DNA from: Micromonospora olivasterospora
GTDB taxonomy: Bacteria > Actinomycetota > Actinomycetes > Mycobacteriales > Micromonosporaceae
Direction: 5' to 3'
Length of the DNA stretch: 64,000 nucleotides
Assembly (NCBI RefSeq): GCF_007830265.1
Contig: NZ_VLKE01000001.1
Span: forward strand, 1,488,001-1,552,000
A program made the position numbers and the translations under genes. The notes beneath the pieces were generated by a model, which ran no database searches, was not told the DNA's origin, and saw only the letters and a list, made by a program, of their open reading frames with translations. Each line of letters begins with the position of its first letter. The stretch's first letter is position 1. Positions 13,729 through 29,477 of this stretch are shown in pieces.

Positions 13729-13735
13729 GCACTCG

Positions 13736-13809
13736 TAGCGGGGACAGGATTTGAACCTGCGACCTCTGGGTTATGAGCCCAGCGAGCTACCGAGCTGCTC
13801 CACCCCGCG
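13736..13809 (-). tRNA. initiator tRNA-fMet (CAT), copy 1
   Basis: A 74-nt cloverleaf read on the minus strand from CGCGGGGTGG. Anticodon loop CTCATAA; T-loop TTCAAAT. Initiator traits are present: a non-pairing 1-72 position (C opposite T), three G-C pairs next to the anticodon loop (GGG/CCC) and an A11-T24 pair. CCA is not encoded. Identical to the copy at 14069-14142. Confidence 0.93.
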
Positions 13810-14061: not shown

Positions 14062-14068
14062 CGAGGAG

Positions 14069-14142
14069 TAGCGGGGACAGGATTTGAACCTGCGACCTCT
14101 GGGTTATGAGCCCAGCGAGCTACCGAGCTGCTCCACCCCGCG
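14069..14142 (-). tRNA. initiator tRNA-fMet (CAT), copy 2
   Basis: Same 74-nt sequence as the gene at 13736-13809, with the same initiator features and no encoded CCA. The two genes are 259 bases apart, each followed by its own hairpin, so they look like a tandem duplication with separate terminators. Confidence 0.93.
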
Positions 14143-24799: not shown

Positions 24800-26128
24800 G
24801 TGACCGACATCCCGCGCCGGGCCGTCTCCCGGACCGCCAAGCTCGCCGCTCTGCCGCTCGGCTTCGCCGGTCGGACCGTCCTCGGCATGGGTAAGCGCGT
24901 CACCGGGCTCGCCTCCGACGTGATCTCCGCCGAGATCCAGCAGCGCACGGCCGAGCAGCTGTTCAGCGTGCTGGGCCAGCTCAAGGGCGGGGCGATGAAG
25001 TTCGGCCAGGCGCTGTCGGTCTTCGAGGCGGCCCTGCCGGAGGAGGTCGCGGCCCCCTACCGGCAGGCCCTCACCAAGCTCCAGGAGGCCGCCCCGCCGC
25101 TGCCCGCCGCCACCGTGCACAAGGTGCTCGCCGAGCAGCTCGGCCCGGACTGGCGGGGCTTCTTCGTCACCTTCGACGACAAACCGGCCGCCGCGGCCAG
25201 CATCGGACAGGTGCACCGGGCGGTGTGGCGGGACCCGGAGGGCATCCCACGCGACGCGGCGGTCAAGATCCAGTACCCGGGCGCGGGCGACGCCCTGCTC
25301 GCCGACCTGAAGCAGCTCTCCCGGCTCGGCGGCATGTTCCGGGCGTTCCAGCCCGGGCTGGACGTCAAGCCGCTCCTGGCCGAGCTGCGGGAACGGATCA
25401 CCGAGGAGCTGGACTACGAGCTGGAGGCCGAGTCGCAGCGCGCCTTCGGCGCGGCGTACGCGGACGACCCGGAGATCTTCGTCCCGGCGGTGCTCGCGGC
25501 GACCCCCCGGGTGCTGGTCACCGAGTGGGTCGAGGGGATTCCGCTGGCCGACATCATCCGCGAGGGCGCCGAGGAGCAGCGCGACGAGGCCGGCCGGCTG
25601 ATGGCGATCCTGCACCTGTCGGCGCCCATGCGCGCCGGCCTGCTGCACGCCGACCCGCACCCGGGCAACTTCCGGCTGCTGCCCGACGGGCGGCTCGGCG
25701 TGATCGACTTCGGCGCGGTGGCGCGAATGCCCGAGGGCACGCCCGAGCCGATCGGCCGGCTGGCCGGGATGGCGCTGCGCGGCGAGGCGGACGCGGTCGT
25801 GGCGGGGCTGCGGGAGGAGGGCTTCGTCAGCGGGACGGAGCCGATCGACGCGCAGGCCGTGCTGGACTACGTCCGGCCGATGCTCGACCCGGTTGCCACC
25901 GAGGAGTTCCGGTTCACCCGGTCCTGGCTGCGGAGTGAGGCGGCGAGGCTGGCCAGCCCACGCTCGCCGGCGTACCAGTTGGGCCGGCAGCTCAACCTGC
26001 CCCCGTCGTACCTGCTGATCCACCGGGTGACGCTCGGCTCGATCGGGGTGCTCTGCCAGCTGAACGCCAAGGCGCCGTACCGCGCGATCCTGGAGCGCTG
26101 GCTGCCGGGGTTCGCCCCGGTGGGCTGA
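24800..26128 (+). CDS. ABC1/UbiB (AarF) family atypical kinase
   Basis: A 442-residue member of the ABC1 atypical kinase family. The family N-terminal KxGQ motif is present as GGAMKFGQALSVFEAALPEE, then AAAASIGQVHRAVW (Ala-rich loop replacing the glycine loop), VKIQYPGAGDAL (Lys), EELDYELEAESQ, HADPHPGNFRLLPDGRLGVI (catalytic) and DFGAVARMPEG (metal). Family roles involve isoprenoid/quinone lipid homeostasis. GTG start at 24800. It is followed by a hairpin and converges with the whiB7 transcript, as Rv3197 does in M. tuberculosis. Confidence 0.92.
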   Translation: MTDIPRRAVSRTAKLAALPLGFAGRTVLGMGKRVTGLASDVISAEIQQRTAEQLFSVLGQLKGGAMKFGQALSVFEAALPEEVAAPYRQALTKLQEAAPPLPAATVHKVLAEQLGPDWRGFFVTFDDKPAAAASIGQVHRAVWRDPEGIPRDAAVKIQYPGAGDALLADLKQLSRLGGMFRAFQPGLDVKPLLAELRERITEELDYELEAESQRAFGAAYADDPEIFVPAVLAATPRVLVTEWVEGIPLADIIREGAEEQRDEAGRLMAILHLSAPMRAGLLHADPHPGNFRLLPDGRLGVIDFGAVARMPEGTPEPIGRLAGMALRGEADAVVAGLREEGFVSGTEPIDAQAVLDYVRPMLDPVATEEFRFTRSWLRSEAARLASPRSPAYQLGRQLNLPPSYLLIHRVTLGSIGVLCQLNAKAPYRAILERWLPGFAPVG

Positions 26129-26441: not shown

Positions 26442-26807
26442 TCAGGCAGCCAGCCGGACCGCGTTGCGCTTCTGGGACAGCCCACTGGCCGCCAGGCGCG
26501 CCTCGGCCTCGACCTTCAGCGCGGCGTCACGCGCGACGTCCTCCTTGCGCGGGCGGCCACGGGGCCGCTTGCGCGGAACGACCGCGCCACGCTCGAAGAT
26601 TTCGCCGCCCCAGACGCCCCAGGGCTCGGCCCGCTCGACCGCGCCCGCGAGGCACTCGACGCGCAGCGGACAGTCCCCGCAGAGCGACTTGGCCAGCTCG
26701 AGCTCGGTGGGCGAGTCGGAGAACCACAGGTCGGGGTCGAACTTCCGGCAGGGCAGGTTCGCCTCCAGCTCGACAGTCACGTCGAGGGGGGCCAACGCCA
26801 GACTCAT
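26442..26807 (-). CDS. whiB7: WhiB7-type iron-sulfur transcription factor
   Basis: A 121-residue Wbl protein. Four Cys ligands for a [4Fe-4S] cluster are seen in LPCRKFDPDLWF, AKSLCGDCPLRVECLAGA, followed by the sigma-binding GVWGG turn (residues about 64-68). The C-terminal AT-hook RKRPRGRPRKEDVARD (RGRP core) is specific to WhiB7/WblC. The protein activates intrinsic antibiotic-resistance and redox genes with the primary sigma factor. ATG 26807 lies about 465 nt after the predicted transcription start; the leader holds a small ORF and an intrinsic terminator (see separate entries). Position between the ABC1 kinase and uvrD2 confirms orthology. Confidence 0.95.
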   Translation of the reverse strand: MSLALAPLDVTVELEANLPCRKFDPDLWFSDSPTELELAKSLCGDCPLRVECLAGAVERAEPWGVWGGEIFERGAVVPRKRPRGRPRKEDVARDAALKVEAEARLAASGLSQKRNAVRLAA

Positions 26808-26871
26808 CTCCCGGTCACCTCTCTCTCACTTCGATCTCGTGGATCGGATTTCCGACGTACTTCGGCGGGAC

Positions 26872-26914
26872 AAAAACTGAGGCCGCGGATCCCGGTTACG
26901 GGTTCCGCGGCCTC
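26872..26914 (-). terminator. intrinsic terminator in the whiB7 leader (attenuator)
   Basis: On the minus strand the stem GAGGCCGCGGA...TCCGCGGCCTC (26914-26879) is followed by a TTTTT tract (26876-26872), 65 bases before the whiB7 ATG. It is the only strong hairpin-plus-T-tract terminator inside a leader in this window. Confidence 0.85.
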
Positions 26915-26971
26915 GAGGTGAGCCGGTGGTCTGGTGATCAGACCGGTCTACCTCGAGGTGGAACGCCGCGG
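26905..26971 (-). promoter_or_regulatory. candidate antiterminator pairing in the whiB7 leader
   Basis: CCTCGAGG and CCGCGG occur twice. CCTCGAGG is at 26911-26918 and 26951-26958; CCGCGG is at 26905-26910 and 26966-26971. Both are self-complementary, so the upstream set (inside the leader ORF) can pair with the downstream set, which contains the first arm of the terminator. The two structures are mutually exclusive. The leader ORF stop lies in the loop. Confidence 0.6.
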
Positions 26972-27189
26972 ACATCCGTGCGCTTGTTGGCGCCGCCGAT
27001 GCCCATGCCCGTGAAGCCACTGGTCCCCTCGATTCCGGTTGGCGCGGTCGCGAGGATCAGCTCGGCCTGAGCCTGGACCTGGTGCACCTGCGGAACCGAC
27101 GGTCGAGCGACAAGGGCCACCCGGACAGCCGACAGCGGAGCGCAGACGGCAGGCAGCGCCGCCGGACGCTCATAGGTGAAGATCTCCAT
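26938..27189 (-). CDS. whiB7 leader ORF (uORF)
   Basis: An 83-residue frame in the whiB7 leader, starting MEIFTYERPAALPAVCAPLS and ending TDVRGVPPRGRPV, with a strong GAGGGGGG ribosome site. Its stop lies 24 bases before the terminator stem, and its last third overlaps the antiterminator strand. This geometry fits ribosome-mediated attenuation: slow or stalled translation changes leader folding and lets RNA polymerase reach whiB7. Leader ORFs with terminators are known for wblC/whiB7 of Streptomyces and mycobacteria. The peptide itself may have no function. Confidence 0.65.
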   Translation of the reverse strand: MEIFTYERPAALPAVCAPLSAVRVALVARPSVPQVHQVQAQAELILATAPTGIEGTSGFTGMGIGGANKRTDVRGVPPRGRPV

Positions 27190-27275
27190 CGGTGCCACCC
27201 CCCTCACGTTCCTCGAAGTCGACTGGGCCGCCCCCGTGAGCAGCGCGAATGACGCCGCTCGCGAGGTGTGTCCTG

Positions 27276-27305
27276 AGGCTATTCCTCGCCCGGGGGCGAG
27301 GGCAA
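27276..27305 (-). promoter_or_regulatory. whiB7: whiB7 promoter with upstream A/T patch
   Basis: On the minus strand TTGCCC (27305-27300), 18-bp spacer, TAGCCT (27281-27276). Directly upstream is an A/T-rich patch (GTAAATTCGT, 27314-27305) at the end of uvrD2. WhiB7-activated promoters have an A/T stretch just upstream of -35 for the AT-hook, so autoregulation is expected. Confidence 0.55.
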
Positions 27306-27311
27306 ACGAAT

Positions 27312-29477
27312 TTACGGCTCGATTTCGAAAGTTTTCTCCGGGCAGACGTCGTCGACCGTCGCGCCCCCCACGAGGGCGAGCACCGGCTCGCCGTACAGGC
27401 CGAGCTTGCGGGGCCCGATCCCGGCGATCGCGATCAGCTCCTCGGGGCGGGCCGGCCGCCGTTCCGCCAGCGCGGTGATGGTGGCGTCGGTGAAGACCAC
27501 GTACGCCGGGACCTTCTGCGCGCCGGCCACCCGGGCCCGCCACTCGCGCAGCCGCTCGTACAGGTCCTGGTCGATGTCGGACGGGCAGGTGGGGCAGCGG
27601 CCGAGCTTGCGGTCCGGGCCGGCGAGCAGGGTGGCGCCGCAGATCCGGCAGGAGACGACCTGCGGGCGGCGGCGCTCCGCGCGCCGGGCGACCGCCGCCG
27701 CGCCGGCCCGCTCCGTCCCGCCGCCGGAGCGGTCGAGCTGGGGCAGGAACCGGGAGGGCCGCCGGGCGCGCCCGCCCGGAGAGCGGGCCACCGCGTACGA
27801 CAGCCAGAGCCACTCCCGGGCCCGGGTGATCCCGACGTAGAGCAGCCGGCGCTCCTCCTCGACCTGGTCGGGCGTGCGCGCGTACGAGGTGGGCAGAGTC
27901 CCCTCGGAGAGGCCGACGAGGAACACGGCGTCCCACTCCAGGCCCTTCGCGGAGTGCAGGGACGCCAGGGTCACCCCCTCGACCGTCGGCACGTGCTGCG
28001 CGGCGGCCCGCCGGGCCAGTTCCTCGTTGAAGTCGGCCAGCGTCACCGGGCGCTCCACCGCGGCGGCCTCGCCGATCGGCAGCACCGGCGGCGTCGCCGC
28101 GTACTCCTCGGCGAGCTGGACCAGGGCTGCCAGAGCCTCCCAGCGTTCCCGGGCCGCGCCGCCGGCCGGGGCGGCGTCCGGCGCCCAGCCGACCGCCGAC
28201 AGTCCCTCAACCACGGCGTCCCGCAGCGGCGTCTCCCCGGGGATGGCGCGGGTCGCGGCCCGCAGCGCCACCATCGCCTGGCGCACCTCGACCCGCTCGA
28301 AGAACCGCTCGGCCCCCTGCACCACGTACGGCACCTCGGCCTCGGTGAGCGCCTTCTCGTACGCCTCGGACTGCGCGTTGGTGCGGAACAGCACGGCGAT
28401 CTCCCGGGCCGGGGTGCCGCCTGCGACCAGGGCCCGGCAGCGGGCCGCCACGGCGGCGGCCTCGGCCGGCTCGTCGGTGAAGATCCGCAGCTCGGGCTCC
28501 GGGCCGGGCGGGCGCTGGCCGCGCAGCTCCAGCCGCAGCCGCGCCTCGGTGCCCCGGGCCTGGGAGATCACCGCGTTGGCCAGCCCGACCACCTGCGGCG
28601 TGGACCGGTAGTCGCGAACCAGCCGGACCACCGTCGCGTTCCGGTGCCGGCGGGGGAAGTCGATCAGGTACGCCGAGGTGGCGCCGGTGAACGAGTAGAT
28701 GGTCTGGCTGGCGTCGCCGACGACGGTCAGGTCGTCCCGGCCGCCCAGCCACGCCTCCAGCAGCCGCTGCTGGAGCGGGTTGACGTCCTGGTACTCGTCG
28801 ACCACGAAGTGCCGGTACTGGGCCCTGACCTGCTCGGCGACGTCCGGGTGCTCCTCGATGCCCCACACCGCCGCGCGCAGCATGTCCTCGAAGTCGATCA
28901 CTCCGTTGGCCCGCTTGAGCCGCTCGTACGCCACGAAGACCTCGGCCACCTTCGCCGGCTCGTGCGGGGTCTCGCGCAGCGCCTTGGCCGCCGCGACGAC
29001 GTACTCCCCCGGCTCGACCAGGGACGACTTGGCCCACTCGATCTCGCCGGCCAGGTCCCGTGCGGCGGCCCGGTCGGTCCGCAGCCCGGCGCGGGCGGCG
29101 GCCAGGGTGACCAGGCGGACCTTGCTGTCCAGCAGCTCCGGCATGGCCCGCCCCTGGAGCAGGCGCGGGGCGAAGTAGCGCACCTGGCGCAGCGCGGCGG
29201 CGTGAAACGTGCGTGCCTGCACCCCGGTCACCCCGAGCACGGTGAGCCGGCTGCGCATCTCGGCGGCGGCCCGGGCGGTGAACGTCACCGCGAGCACGTG
29301 CCCGGGGGACACCTGGCCGGTGAGCGCCCGGTGGGCGATCCGCGAGGTGACGGCCCGGGTCTTGCCGGTGCCGGCGCCGGCCAGGATGCACACCGGGCCG
29401 GCCGGGGCGGTCACCGCGGAGCGCTGCTCCGGGTCGAGCCCGGCGAGCACCCGCTCCGCCGCTGAGTGAACCCCCAC
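27312..29477 (-). CDS. uvrD2: ATP-dependent DNA helicase UvrD2
   Basis: A 721-residue SF1A helicase with a 3'-5' motor: Walker A AGAGTGKTRAV (near residue 35), TFTARAAAEMRSRL, motif II VVDEYQDVNPLQQ, GDASQTIYSFTGA, and motifs V-VI TLASLHSAKGLEWDAVF and LLYVGITRAREWL. The UvrD2 hallmark, a tetracysteine module (CRICGATLL...GRCPTC, near 609-630), links the motor to a C-terminal HRDC domain (RPEELIAIAGIGPRKLGLYG). GTG start at 29477. The 3' end overlaps the whiB7 promoter region. Divergent from mycoredoxin, as in M. tuberculosis. Confidence 0.95.
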   Translation of the reverse strand: MGVHSAAERVLAGLDPEQRSAVTAPAGPVCILAGAGTGKTRAVTSRIAHRALTGQVSPGHVLAVTFTARAAAEMRSRLTVLGVTGVQARTFHAAALRQVRYFAPRLLQGRAMPELLDSKVRLVTLAAARAGLRTDRAAARDLAGEIEWAKSSLVEPGEYVVAAAKALRETPHEPAKVAEVFVAYERLKRANGVIDFEDMLRAAVWGIEEHPDVAEQVRAQYRHFVVDEYQDVNPLQQRLLEAWLGGRDDLTVVGDASQTIYSFTGATSAYLIDFPRRHRNATVVRLVRDYRSTPQVVGLANAVISQARGTEARLRLELRGQRPPGPEPELRIFTDEPAEAAAVAARCRALVAGGTPAREIAVLFRTNAQSEAYEKALTEAEVPYVVQGAERFFERVEVRQAMVALRAATRAIPGETPLRDAVVEGLSAVGWAPDAAPAGGAARERWEALAALVQLAEEYAATPPVLPIGEAAAVERPVTLADFNEELARRAAAQHVPTVEGVTLASLHSAKGLEWDAVFLVGLSEGTLPTSYARTPDQVEEERRLLYVGITRAREWLWLSYAVARSPGGRARRPSRFLPQLDRSGGGTERAGAAAVARRAERRRPQVVSCRICGATLLAGPDRKLGRCPTCPSDIDQDLYERLREWRARVAGAQKVPAYVVFTDATITALAERRPARPEELIAIAGIGPRKLGLYGEPVLALVGGATVDDVCPEKTFEIEP

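Follow-up and report, generated by a model that had tools for sequence, protein, structure and literature searches.

The gene whiB7, the master gene of the antibiotic response, is preceded in the soil actinomycete Micromonospora olivasterospora by a leader which, in our judgement, very probably acts as a ribosome-gated transcription attenuator. The window analysed here is the whole stretch of 64,000 nucleotides (nt) on contig NZ_VLKE01000001.1 (assembly GCF_007830265.1, positions 1,488,001 to 1,552,000 of the forward strand), and all coordinates are those of the window. The support comes from the anatomy of the leader, its conservation and covariation, a weak coding constraint on an upstream open reading frame (uORF) and predicted folds. 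In the proposed mechanism, a ribosome would be translating the uORF as RNA polymerase transcribes the leader. A ribosome keeping up as far as the last ~10 codons or the stop would cover segment 2 at the uORF end, leaving segment 3 free for segment 4, so that the terminator would form and whiB7 would not be transcribed. With a ribosome stalled earlier, lagging or never started, segments 2 and 3 would pair before segment 4 is made, and the polymerase would pass the U tract and transcribe whiB7. The WhiB7 made would then boost its own promoter. The switch would read the completion of translation, not one codon or one drug, because no upstream competitor for segment 2 was found and the default state should be ON. 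Termination, read-through and a response to antibiotics in this organism are what we infer from this support.

Counts for the family refer to 78 Micromonosporaceae leaders, i.e. the source locus and L007-L083 (the 77 loci left when the Pseudonocardia rows L084-L086 were dropped from 80 collected loci). The following elements, listed in the direction of transcription, make up the leader and its gene:

27309..27314, minus strand: TAAATT, AT-rich, exactly 3 nt upstream of the -35 element; candidate WhiB7 autoregulatory site by its position
27300..27305, minus strand: putative -35 element TTGCCC of the whiB7 promoter, from the promoter pattern
27276..27281, minus strand: putative -10 element TAGCCT of the whiB7 promoter, from the promoter pattern
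27198..27204, minus strand: ribosome-binding site of the uORF, AGGGGGG, purine-rich, from sequence and relatives
26938..27189, minus strand: uORF of 83 codons, MEIFTYERP...DVRGVPPRGRPV, stop codon TGA, present in 78/78 family leaders
26966..26972, minus strand: outer antiterminator arm TCCGCGG within the uORF, from the minimum-energy fold, not family-wide; alternative partner GTTCC at 26964-26960
26951..26958, minus strand: segment 2, antiterminator 5' block CCTCGAGG within the uORF, 11-18 nt before its stop, from conservation, covariation and folding
26923..26946, minus strand: apical hairpin CCGGTCTG-ATCAC-CAGACC-ACCGG, containing the uORF stop codon (helix 3 of the class alignment, 79.0% of cells paired)
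26904..26918, minus strand: segment 3, CCTCGAGGCCGCGGA, antiterminator 3' arm and terminator arm 1, with GGCCGCGGA in 78/78 family leaders
26872..26914, minus strand: intrinsic terminator, stem 26914-26904 / 26889-26879, inner stem CCCG/CGGG, U tract 26876-26872
26442..26807, minus strand: whiB7, 121 amino acids, WhiB domain (Pfam PF02467, 51.6 bits)

Anatomy and predicted folding of the leader

The terminator stem consists of GAGGCCGCGGA (26914-26904) and TCCGCGGCCTC (26889-26879), the latter being segment 4; it contains an A/A mismatch, and its T5 lies 64 nt before the ATG of whiB7. An intrinsic terminator upstream of whiB7 is supported by the sequence, by folding and by the class-wide filter described below. 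The uORF runs from ATG at 27189 to TGA at 26940-26938 and ends just before the terminator; its translation is predicted from the ribosome site, which most relatives replace by GGAGG at the same position, from its presence in all family leaders and from an omega below 1.

The promoter, TTGCCC-18 nt-TAGCCT (27305-27276), would be expected to start transcription near 27269-27270 and to yield a leader of ~462 nt. In 72/78 family leaders the pattern TTG-N3, 16-19 nt, TANNNT lies no more than 175 nt ahead of the uORF start, and some of the six others are sequences cut short. TAAATT shares bases with the stop codon of the helicase gene upstream, and most family rows have an AT-rich stretch of varying letters at this position. 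Autoregulation of the promoter by WhiB7 is likely by analogy of position, because in Streptomyces coelicolor GAAAWY, 3 nt upstream of the -35 element, is bound by WblC (excerpts of PMC7157823). A sequence-only reading which preceded this analysis had described a leader of ~465 nt starting near 27270, an 83-codon frame with its own ribosome site and a GC stem with T5 before whiB7, all of which we recover.

Two alternative folds are available to the transcript, in which segments 2:3 form the antiterminator, closed by the apical hairpin, and segments 3:4 form the terminator. In transcripts up to segment 3, the expected 2:3 pairing is at least 6 base pairs (bp) in 77/78 family leaders, the exception being L071; this criterion replaced a stricter one (8 or more 2:3 pairs at minimum energy; 32/78), which ignored the outer arm. 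Pairing of segment 2 with upstream sequence over at least 6 bp was found in 0/78 leaders, i.e. no trp-type anti-antiterminator sequestering segment 2 was found. Lacking such a competitor, the untranslated leader should be ON, and this would be its default state.

The effect of a ribosome was modelled by masking 30 nt in four of the 78 leaders (source locus, L008, L052 and L074). When the P site lay within 0-9 codons of the stop, 2:3 pairing did not exceed 1.6 bp. It rose to 4.3-5.0 bp at 10 codons and to at least 7.4 bp at 11 codons or more (26-28 positions per leader), with 3.2 bp at 30 codons in L008 as the sole exception. By this model, the antiterminator would be blocked only while a ribosome occupies the last ~10 codons of the uORF; a ribosome finishing the uORF would favour the terminator, and an earlier stall or no ribosome would favour the antiterminator. 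Masked folding had been suggested in the sequence-only reading, and the loss of 2:3 pairing agrees with its claim that ribosome position over the uORF end chooses the fold. Conservation, covariation and folding support that claim, which also matches the published mechanism as excerpts of the literature cite it.

Conservation and covariation in the family and the class

All 78 family leaders contain a frame of at least 68 codons which runs across the block CCNCCTCGA and stops shortly behind it. With starts chosen by ribosome-site score, the uORFs have a median length of 87.5 codons (range 68-157). The uORF was taken as the frame through the block, since choosing the longest open frame is wrong for L023, L027, L029, L035 and L070. 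A contig end truncates the uORF of L077, and the starts of L081 and L082 are uncertain; these three were left out of the uORF alignment, which covers 75/78 leaders. In L060 (Paractinoplanes durhamensis), the usual stop reads TGG and the frame ends one codon later at TAA, hence the stop position is not absolutely fixed.

CCTCGAGG is present at 26958-26951 in the uORF and at 26918-26911 in terminator arm 1. Its uORF copy is fixed in 75/75 aligned uORFs (codons CCT, CGA, GGN) and differs in L077, outside this set; the CCTCGA core of the uORF block and the terminator-arm word are both kept in 78/78 leaders. CCGCGG occurs three times, in the uORF (26971-26966) and in both terminator arms. The uORF copy is typical of Micromonospora, with the Arg codon CGC in 48/75 uORFs and Ser in 22, mainly of the Actinoplanes group. 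The outer antiterminator helix takes differing forms between clades, and neither GTTCC:GGAAC nor the CCGCGG helix is family-wide. GTTCC:GGAAC was rejected as the outer helix of this locus, where it is not the minimum-energy choice, but it is in some relatives. CCTCGAGG is also found in a few other families, and many others have a non-palindromic core such as CCTGGAG/CTCCAGG. Such cores, and a uORF CCGCGG that is not typical of the Actinoplanes group, argue that the conserved feature is the pairing and not a palindromic duplication. Of the two duplicated blocks noted in the sequence-only reading, CCTCGAGG therefore holds family-wide, while the uORF copy of CCGCGG does not, and a palindromic duplicate is not required for the switch. 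Its proposal that the uORF block can pair with terminator arm 1 stands, and this pairing covaries class-wide.

At the peptide level, the C-terminal nonapeptide GVPPRGRPV is almost invariant among the 75 aligned uORFs, whereas the body is conserved only in patches (QVHQ..QAEL and GTSGF). The Gln/His-rich patch QVHQVQ.QAEL (27058-27090, minus strand, uORF codons 34-44) is conserved in most family members and may represent either a site of codon-specific stalling or simply a peptide patch. With tree and kappa fixed, omega of the uORF body was 0.56 in 39 Micromonospora/Salinispora sequences (log-likelihood -2785.8 vs -2803.0 at omega 1) and likewise 0.56 in 21 Actinoplanes-type sequences (-2802.0 vs -2818.5), these being 39 and 21 of the 78 leaders. 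Compared to 0.096 for whiB7 itself, these values indicate that the uORF is selected for being read, with a loosely constrained peptide.

The class sample comprised 148 genomes, 130 of which, source locus included, matched whiB7 with E no higher than 1e-18. A hairpin-plus-T filter found the terminator in 121/130 leaders, all 121 with an open reading frame of at least 15 codons ending near it. Some of the nine leaders without a call are filter misses, as model R1 matches L165, L169, L181 and L195. The uORF start-site score (ribosome site, start codon, length) was passed by 120 leaders, with a median of 75 codons. Class-wide, the presence of a frame alone has no chance control, and recurring C-termini and pairing are the stronger signs. 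The register test, which took the uORF stop and the arm word GGCC as its reference points, used 120 of the 130 rows, the ten dropped having no terminator or a uORF score below 5. The 7-bp core helix had at least 6 pairs in 32/120 leaders at one fixed register and in 36/120 at the next, compared to 1, 1, 2, 4 and 1 of 120 at five control registers.

To assess covariation, 51 diverse leaders were aligned with plain MAFFT and compared with 500 shuffles. At most three dissimilar rows per family, with f5, f26, f28 and f33 (15 rows) left out, gave 60 references; the order mates f2 (7 rows), L089, L096 and L150 were also left out and the source locus was added, and the covariation count speaks for lineages having this helix. 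The covariation score was 0.230 (shuffles 0.180) and 71.1% of cells were paired (67.7); double changes were seen in 49 cells (29.7), and there were 34 further pair types (27.9). Each of these values was reached by 0/500 shuffles. With the structure slid by one position, 54.2% and 45.6% of cells remained paired, at scores of 0.185 and 0.103. As related sequences may exceed such shuffles even when unstructured, more weight lies on the slide and register controls. In the apical hairpin, 4/6 pairs show changes on both sides. A leader's own segment partners pair better than the mean foreign partner in 94/120 leaders and 25/33 families.

Points against the attenuator and alternative explanations

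Several results weigh against the attenuator. The minimum-energy fold holds at least seven segment 3-4 pairs in 78/78 family leaders, and the terminator fold is better than the antiterminator by a median of 8.9 kcal/mol (6.3-14.8). The predicted barrier has a median of 6.7 kcal/mol (range 1.3-17.0), and in leaders with a low barrier antitermination would need other help. With the terminator as the equilibrium winner throughout, the choice would have to fall during transcription, i.e. the switch must be kinetic rather than thermodynamic. In three folds (source locus, L052 and L074), a shortened antiterminator hairpin stands alongside the terminator. The apical half of the antiterminator can coexist with the complete terminator, and the two states are thus only partly exclusive; the 'mutually exclusive' antiterminator of the sequence-only reading holds for the full antiterminator, not for this half.

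The pairing of the uORF end with terminator arm 1, although covarying, is also less well supported in other tests. A slide of -1 gives 50 cells with double changes and 33 further pair types (49 and 34 for the structure itself), and the count of pairs having double changes does not exceed that of shuffles (132/500). Own pairing is no better than foreign in 8/33 families, and only 47/120 leaders beat 95% of mononucleotide shuffles. RNAalifold returned no consensus structure for the 51-row alignment, which we think results from a 1-nt slip of the helix between clades. Model R1 matches 0/8 of the order-mate (f2) loci supplied (L116-L123), so these order mates have a different version of the leader. 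A generic consensus scan reported 0 terminators here (shuffles 0.3) and 0 promoters in the leader region; in our reading, the A/A mismatch of the stem and a non-E. coli promoter fall outside the scan rules. No Rfam family scored above cut-off in the leader, and over the whole window two tRNAs only; at E up to 1, the leader gave three microRNA-family matches only, on the other strand and far under the cut-offs.

Three other explanations have to be weighed. The uORF could be an arrest-peptide or regulatory-codon sensor, in which the peptide (or a run like Q-V-H-Q-V-Q-x-Q) brings about programmed stalling in answer to certain drugs or amino acids, its exact sequence being decisive. The three patches conserved in the family would fit such a sensor, as would the Pro-rich last uORF codons found class-wide and the reported sensing of alanine starvation by the mycobacterial uORF (citing text and title in PMC11550727 and PMC13236596). 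A body omega of 0.56 and lengths of 68-157 codons speak against one fixed peptide, however, and the predicted folds require no specific stall site, which makes this explanation unlikely. It is very unlikely that the antiterminator is not the main control, with the terminator setting a constant low read-through and induction coming mostly from WhiB7 on its own promoter. Such control would agree with a terminator in the equilibrium fold of 78/78 leaders and with the conserved promoter and its AT-rich box, but would give no reason for a covarying antiterminator helix, an apical hairpin and a register to the uORF stop. The near-invariant nonapeptide could also hint at a product acting in trans, be it the uORF C-terminus as a small protein or the terminated ~400-nt transcript as a small RNA. 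We regard this as extremely improbable, as much of the nonapeptide stretch coincides with the antiterminator pairing, the uORF body is weakly constrained and the uORF has no Pfam or NCBIfam family match.

A further idea concerns the attenuator itself. C-terminal proline may slow termination, and the proline end of the uORF (xPPV-stop, PPRGRPV-stop) might be selected as peptide too, slowing the ribosome at the stop and parking it on the antiterminator 5' arm until the terminator forms. Pro is found at uORF codon -2 in 82/120 and at codon -3 in 59/120 class leaders, each with all four Pro codons used, and accounts for 26.8% of the final six residues compared to 6.1% of the body, the counted rows being related to one another. 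The first two bases of codon -3 are both predicted mostly unpaired in 31/120 leaders, of which 24, from 13/18 families, carry Pro. In the remaining 89/120, however, one or both of these bases are mostly paired in the predictions; much of the Pro signal can thus be accounted for by RNA pairing, and Micromonosporaceae carry Arg at -3. We consider the idea rather doubtful. If true, the unstressed OFF state would be locked by programmed slow termination, and the switch would be a kinetic timer.

Locus context and relation to known attenuators

The leader occupies the gap between whiB7 and the upstream helicase gene, both on the minus strand:

27312..29477, minus strand: helicase gene, UvrD/PcrA-like with a RecQ-like C-terminal stretch, with matches under curated cut-offs

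That the downstream gene is whiB7 is supported by the Pfam Whib match, the ranking of PDB matches and the helicase neighbour. The closest PDB sequence match is WhiB7 7kif (E 7.2e-34), the next other WhiB having E 1.8e-7; the product has no NCBIfam family match. It contains RGRPRK, which we take to be an AT-hook-like motif. The nearest whiB7 relatives of the locus are all Micromonospora. A helicase gene match lies upstream of whiB7 in 76/77 family loci and in 27/29 class loci with flanks up to 1.5 kb. Convergent with whiB7, 24800-26128 (plus strand) encodes an ABC1-kinase-like protein, whose top NCBIfam model is the macrolide-binding ATPase MABP-1 (511 bits, under the cut-off of 800); a relative is found on the opposite strand in 65/77 family loci and near whiB7 in 16/29 class loci with flanks up to 1.5 kb. 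The window also contains two tRNA-Met genes (13735-13809 and 14068-14142, minus strand) with equal Rfam scores and starts 333 bases apart. In the 7.07-Mb genome, model R1 found no convincing second copy of the element among the 150 of 11886 first-look candidates scored; the best other match (E 0.018) falls within a gene for an ABC transporter, and eight further listed matches have E 0.9-8.8.

In the trp attenuator, ribosome position on the leader reading frame selects between two RNA folds. A uORF-mediated attenuator of whiB7/wblC was reportedly described in Streptomyces and mycobacteria by Lee, Lee and Roe (2022, Mol Microbiol 117:179). According to excerpts of PMC11550727, PMC9618640, PMC13236596 and PMC12421871, full translation of the whiB7/wblC uORF leads to the terminator and disturbed translation to the antiterminator; the sequence-only reading likewise stated that such attenuation is known in Streptomyces and mycobacteria. 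The Micromonospora leader shares with these systems, as far as those excerpts describe them, the orthologous regulator, a uORF, a Rho-independent terminator and an antiterminator upon failed uORF translation. Features of Micromonosporaceae are the palindromic CCTCGAGG core, the uORF end GVPPRGRPV and the stop codon inside the apical hairpin. For mycobacterial whiB7, excerpts of PMC4128351 describe attenuation with a uORF with Shine-Dalgarno sequence, a terminator at the uORF 3' end and an upstream transcription start (~350 nt there), as here, whereas the sampled order mates f2 have another helix. Several of the L116-L123 leaders carry a GGCCACGG arm with simple pairing, e.g. GTCCGTGG/CCACGGAC in L116.

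Attenuators of the trp/ilv type (ilvB1: excerpts of PMC13236596) likewise let ribosome position on a leader frame select the fold. The present leader differs in that no competitor of segment 2 was found (0/78), the untranslated leader is predicted to be ON and no single regulatory codon is needed. The ARE ABCF attenuators tiaA and are5sc share an antibiotic-responsive uORF with terminator and antiterminator, but their uORFs have 3 and 9 residues and stall at the start codon, compared to 83 codons in the present leader (excerpts of PMC12421871).

Searches of open-licence papers brought up no published account of a whiB7 leader from Micromonospora, and one may exist elsewhere. Taken together, the leader is an instance of an already published type of switch, to which we add corrected details and two sharper predictions. 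It contributes a covarying RNA element without a matching family in the Rfam release searched. Two points are now testable, namely a default-ON leader without translation and a kinetic, not thermodynamic, choice of fold. The finding thus shows the whiB7 translation-stress switch of model actinomycetes to be widespread, with a conserved structure, in a family known for antibiotic producers.

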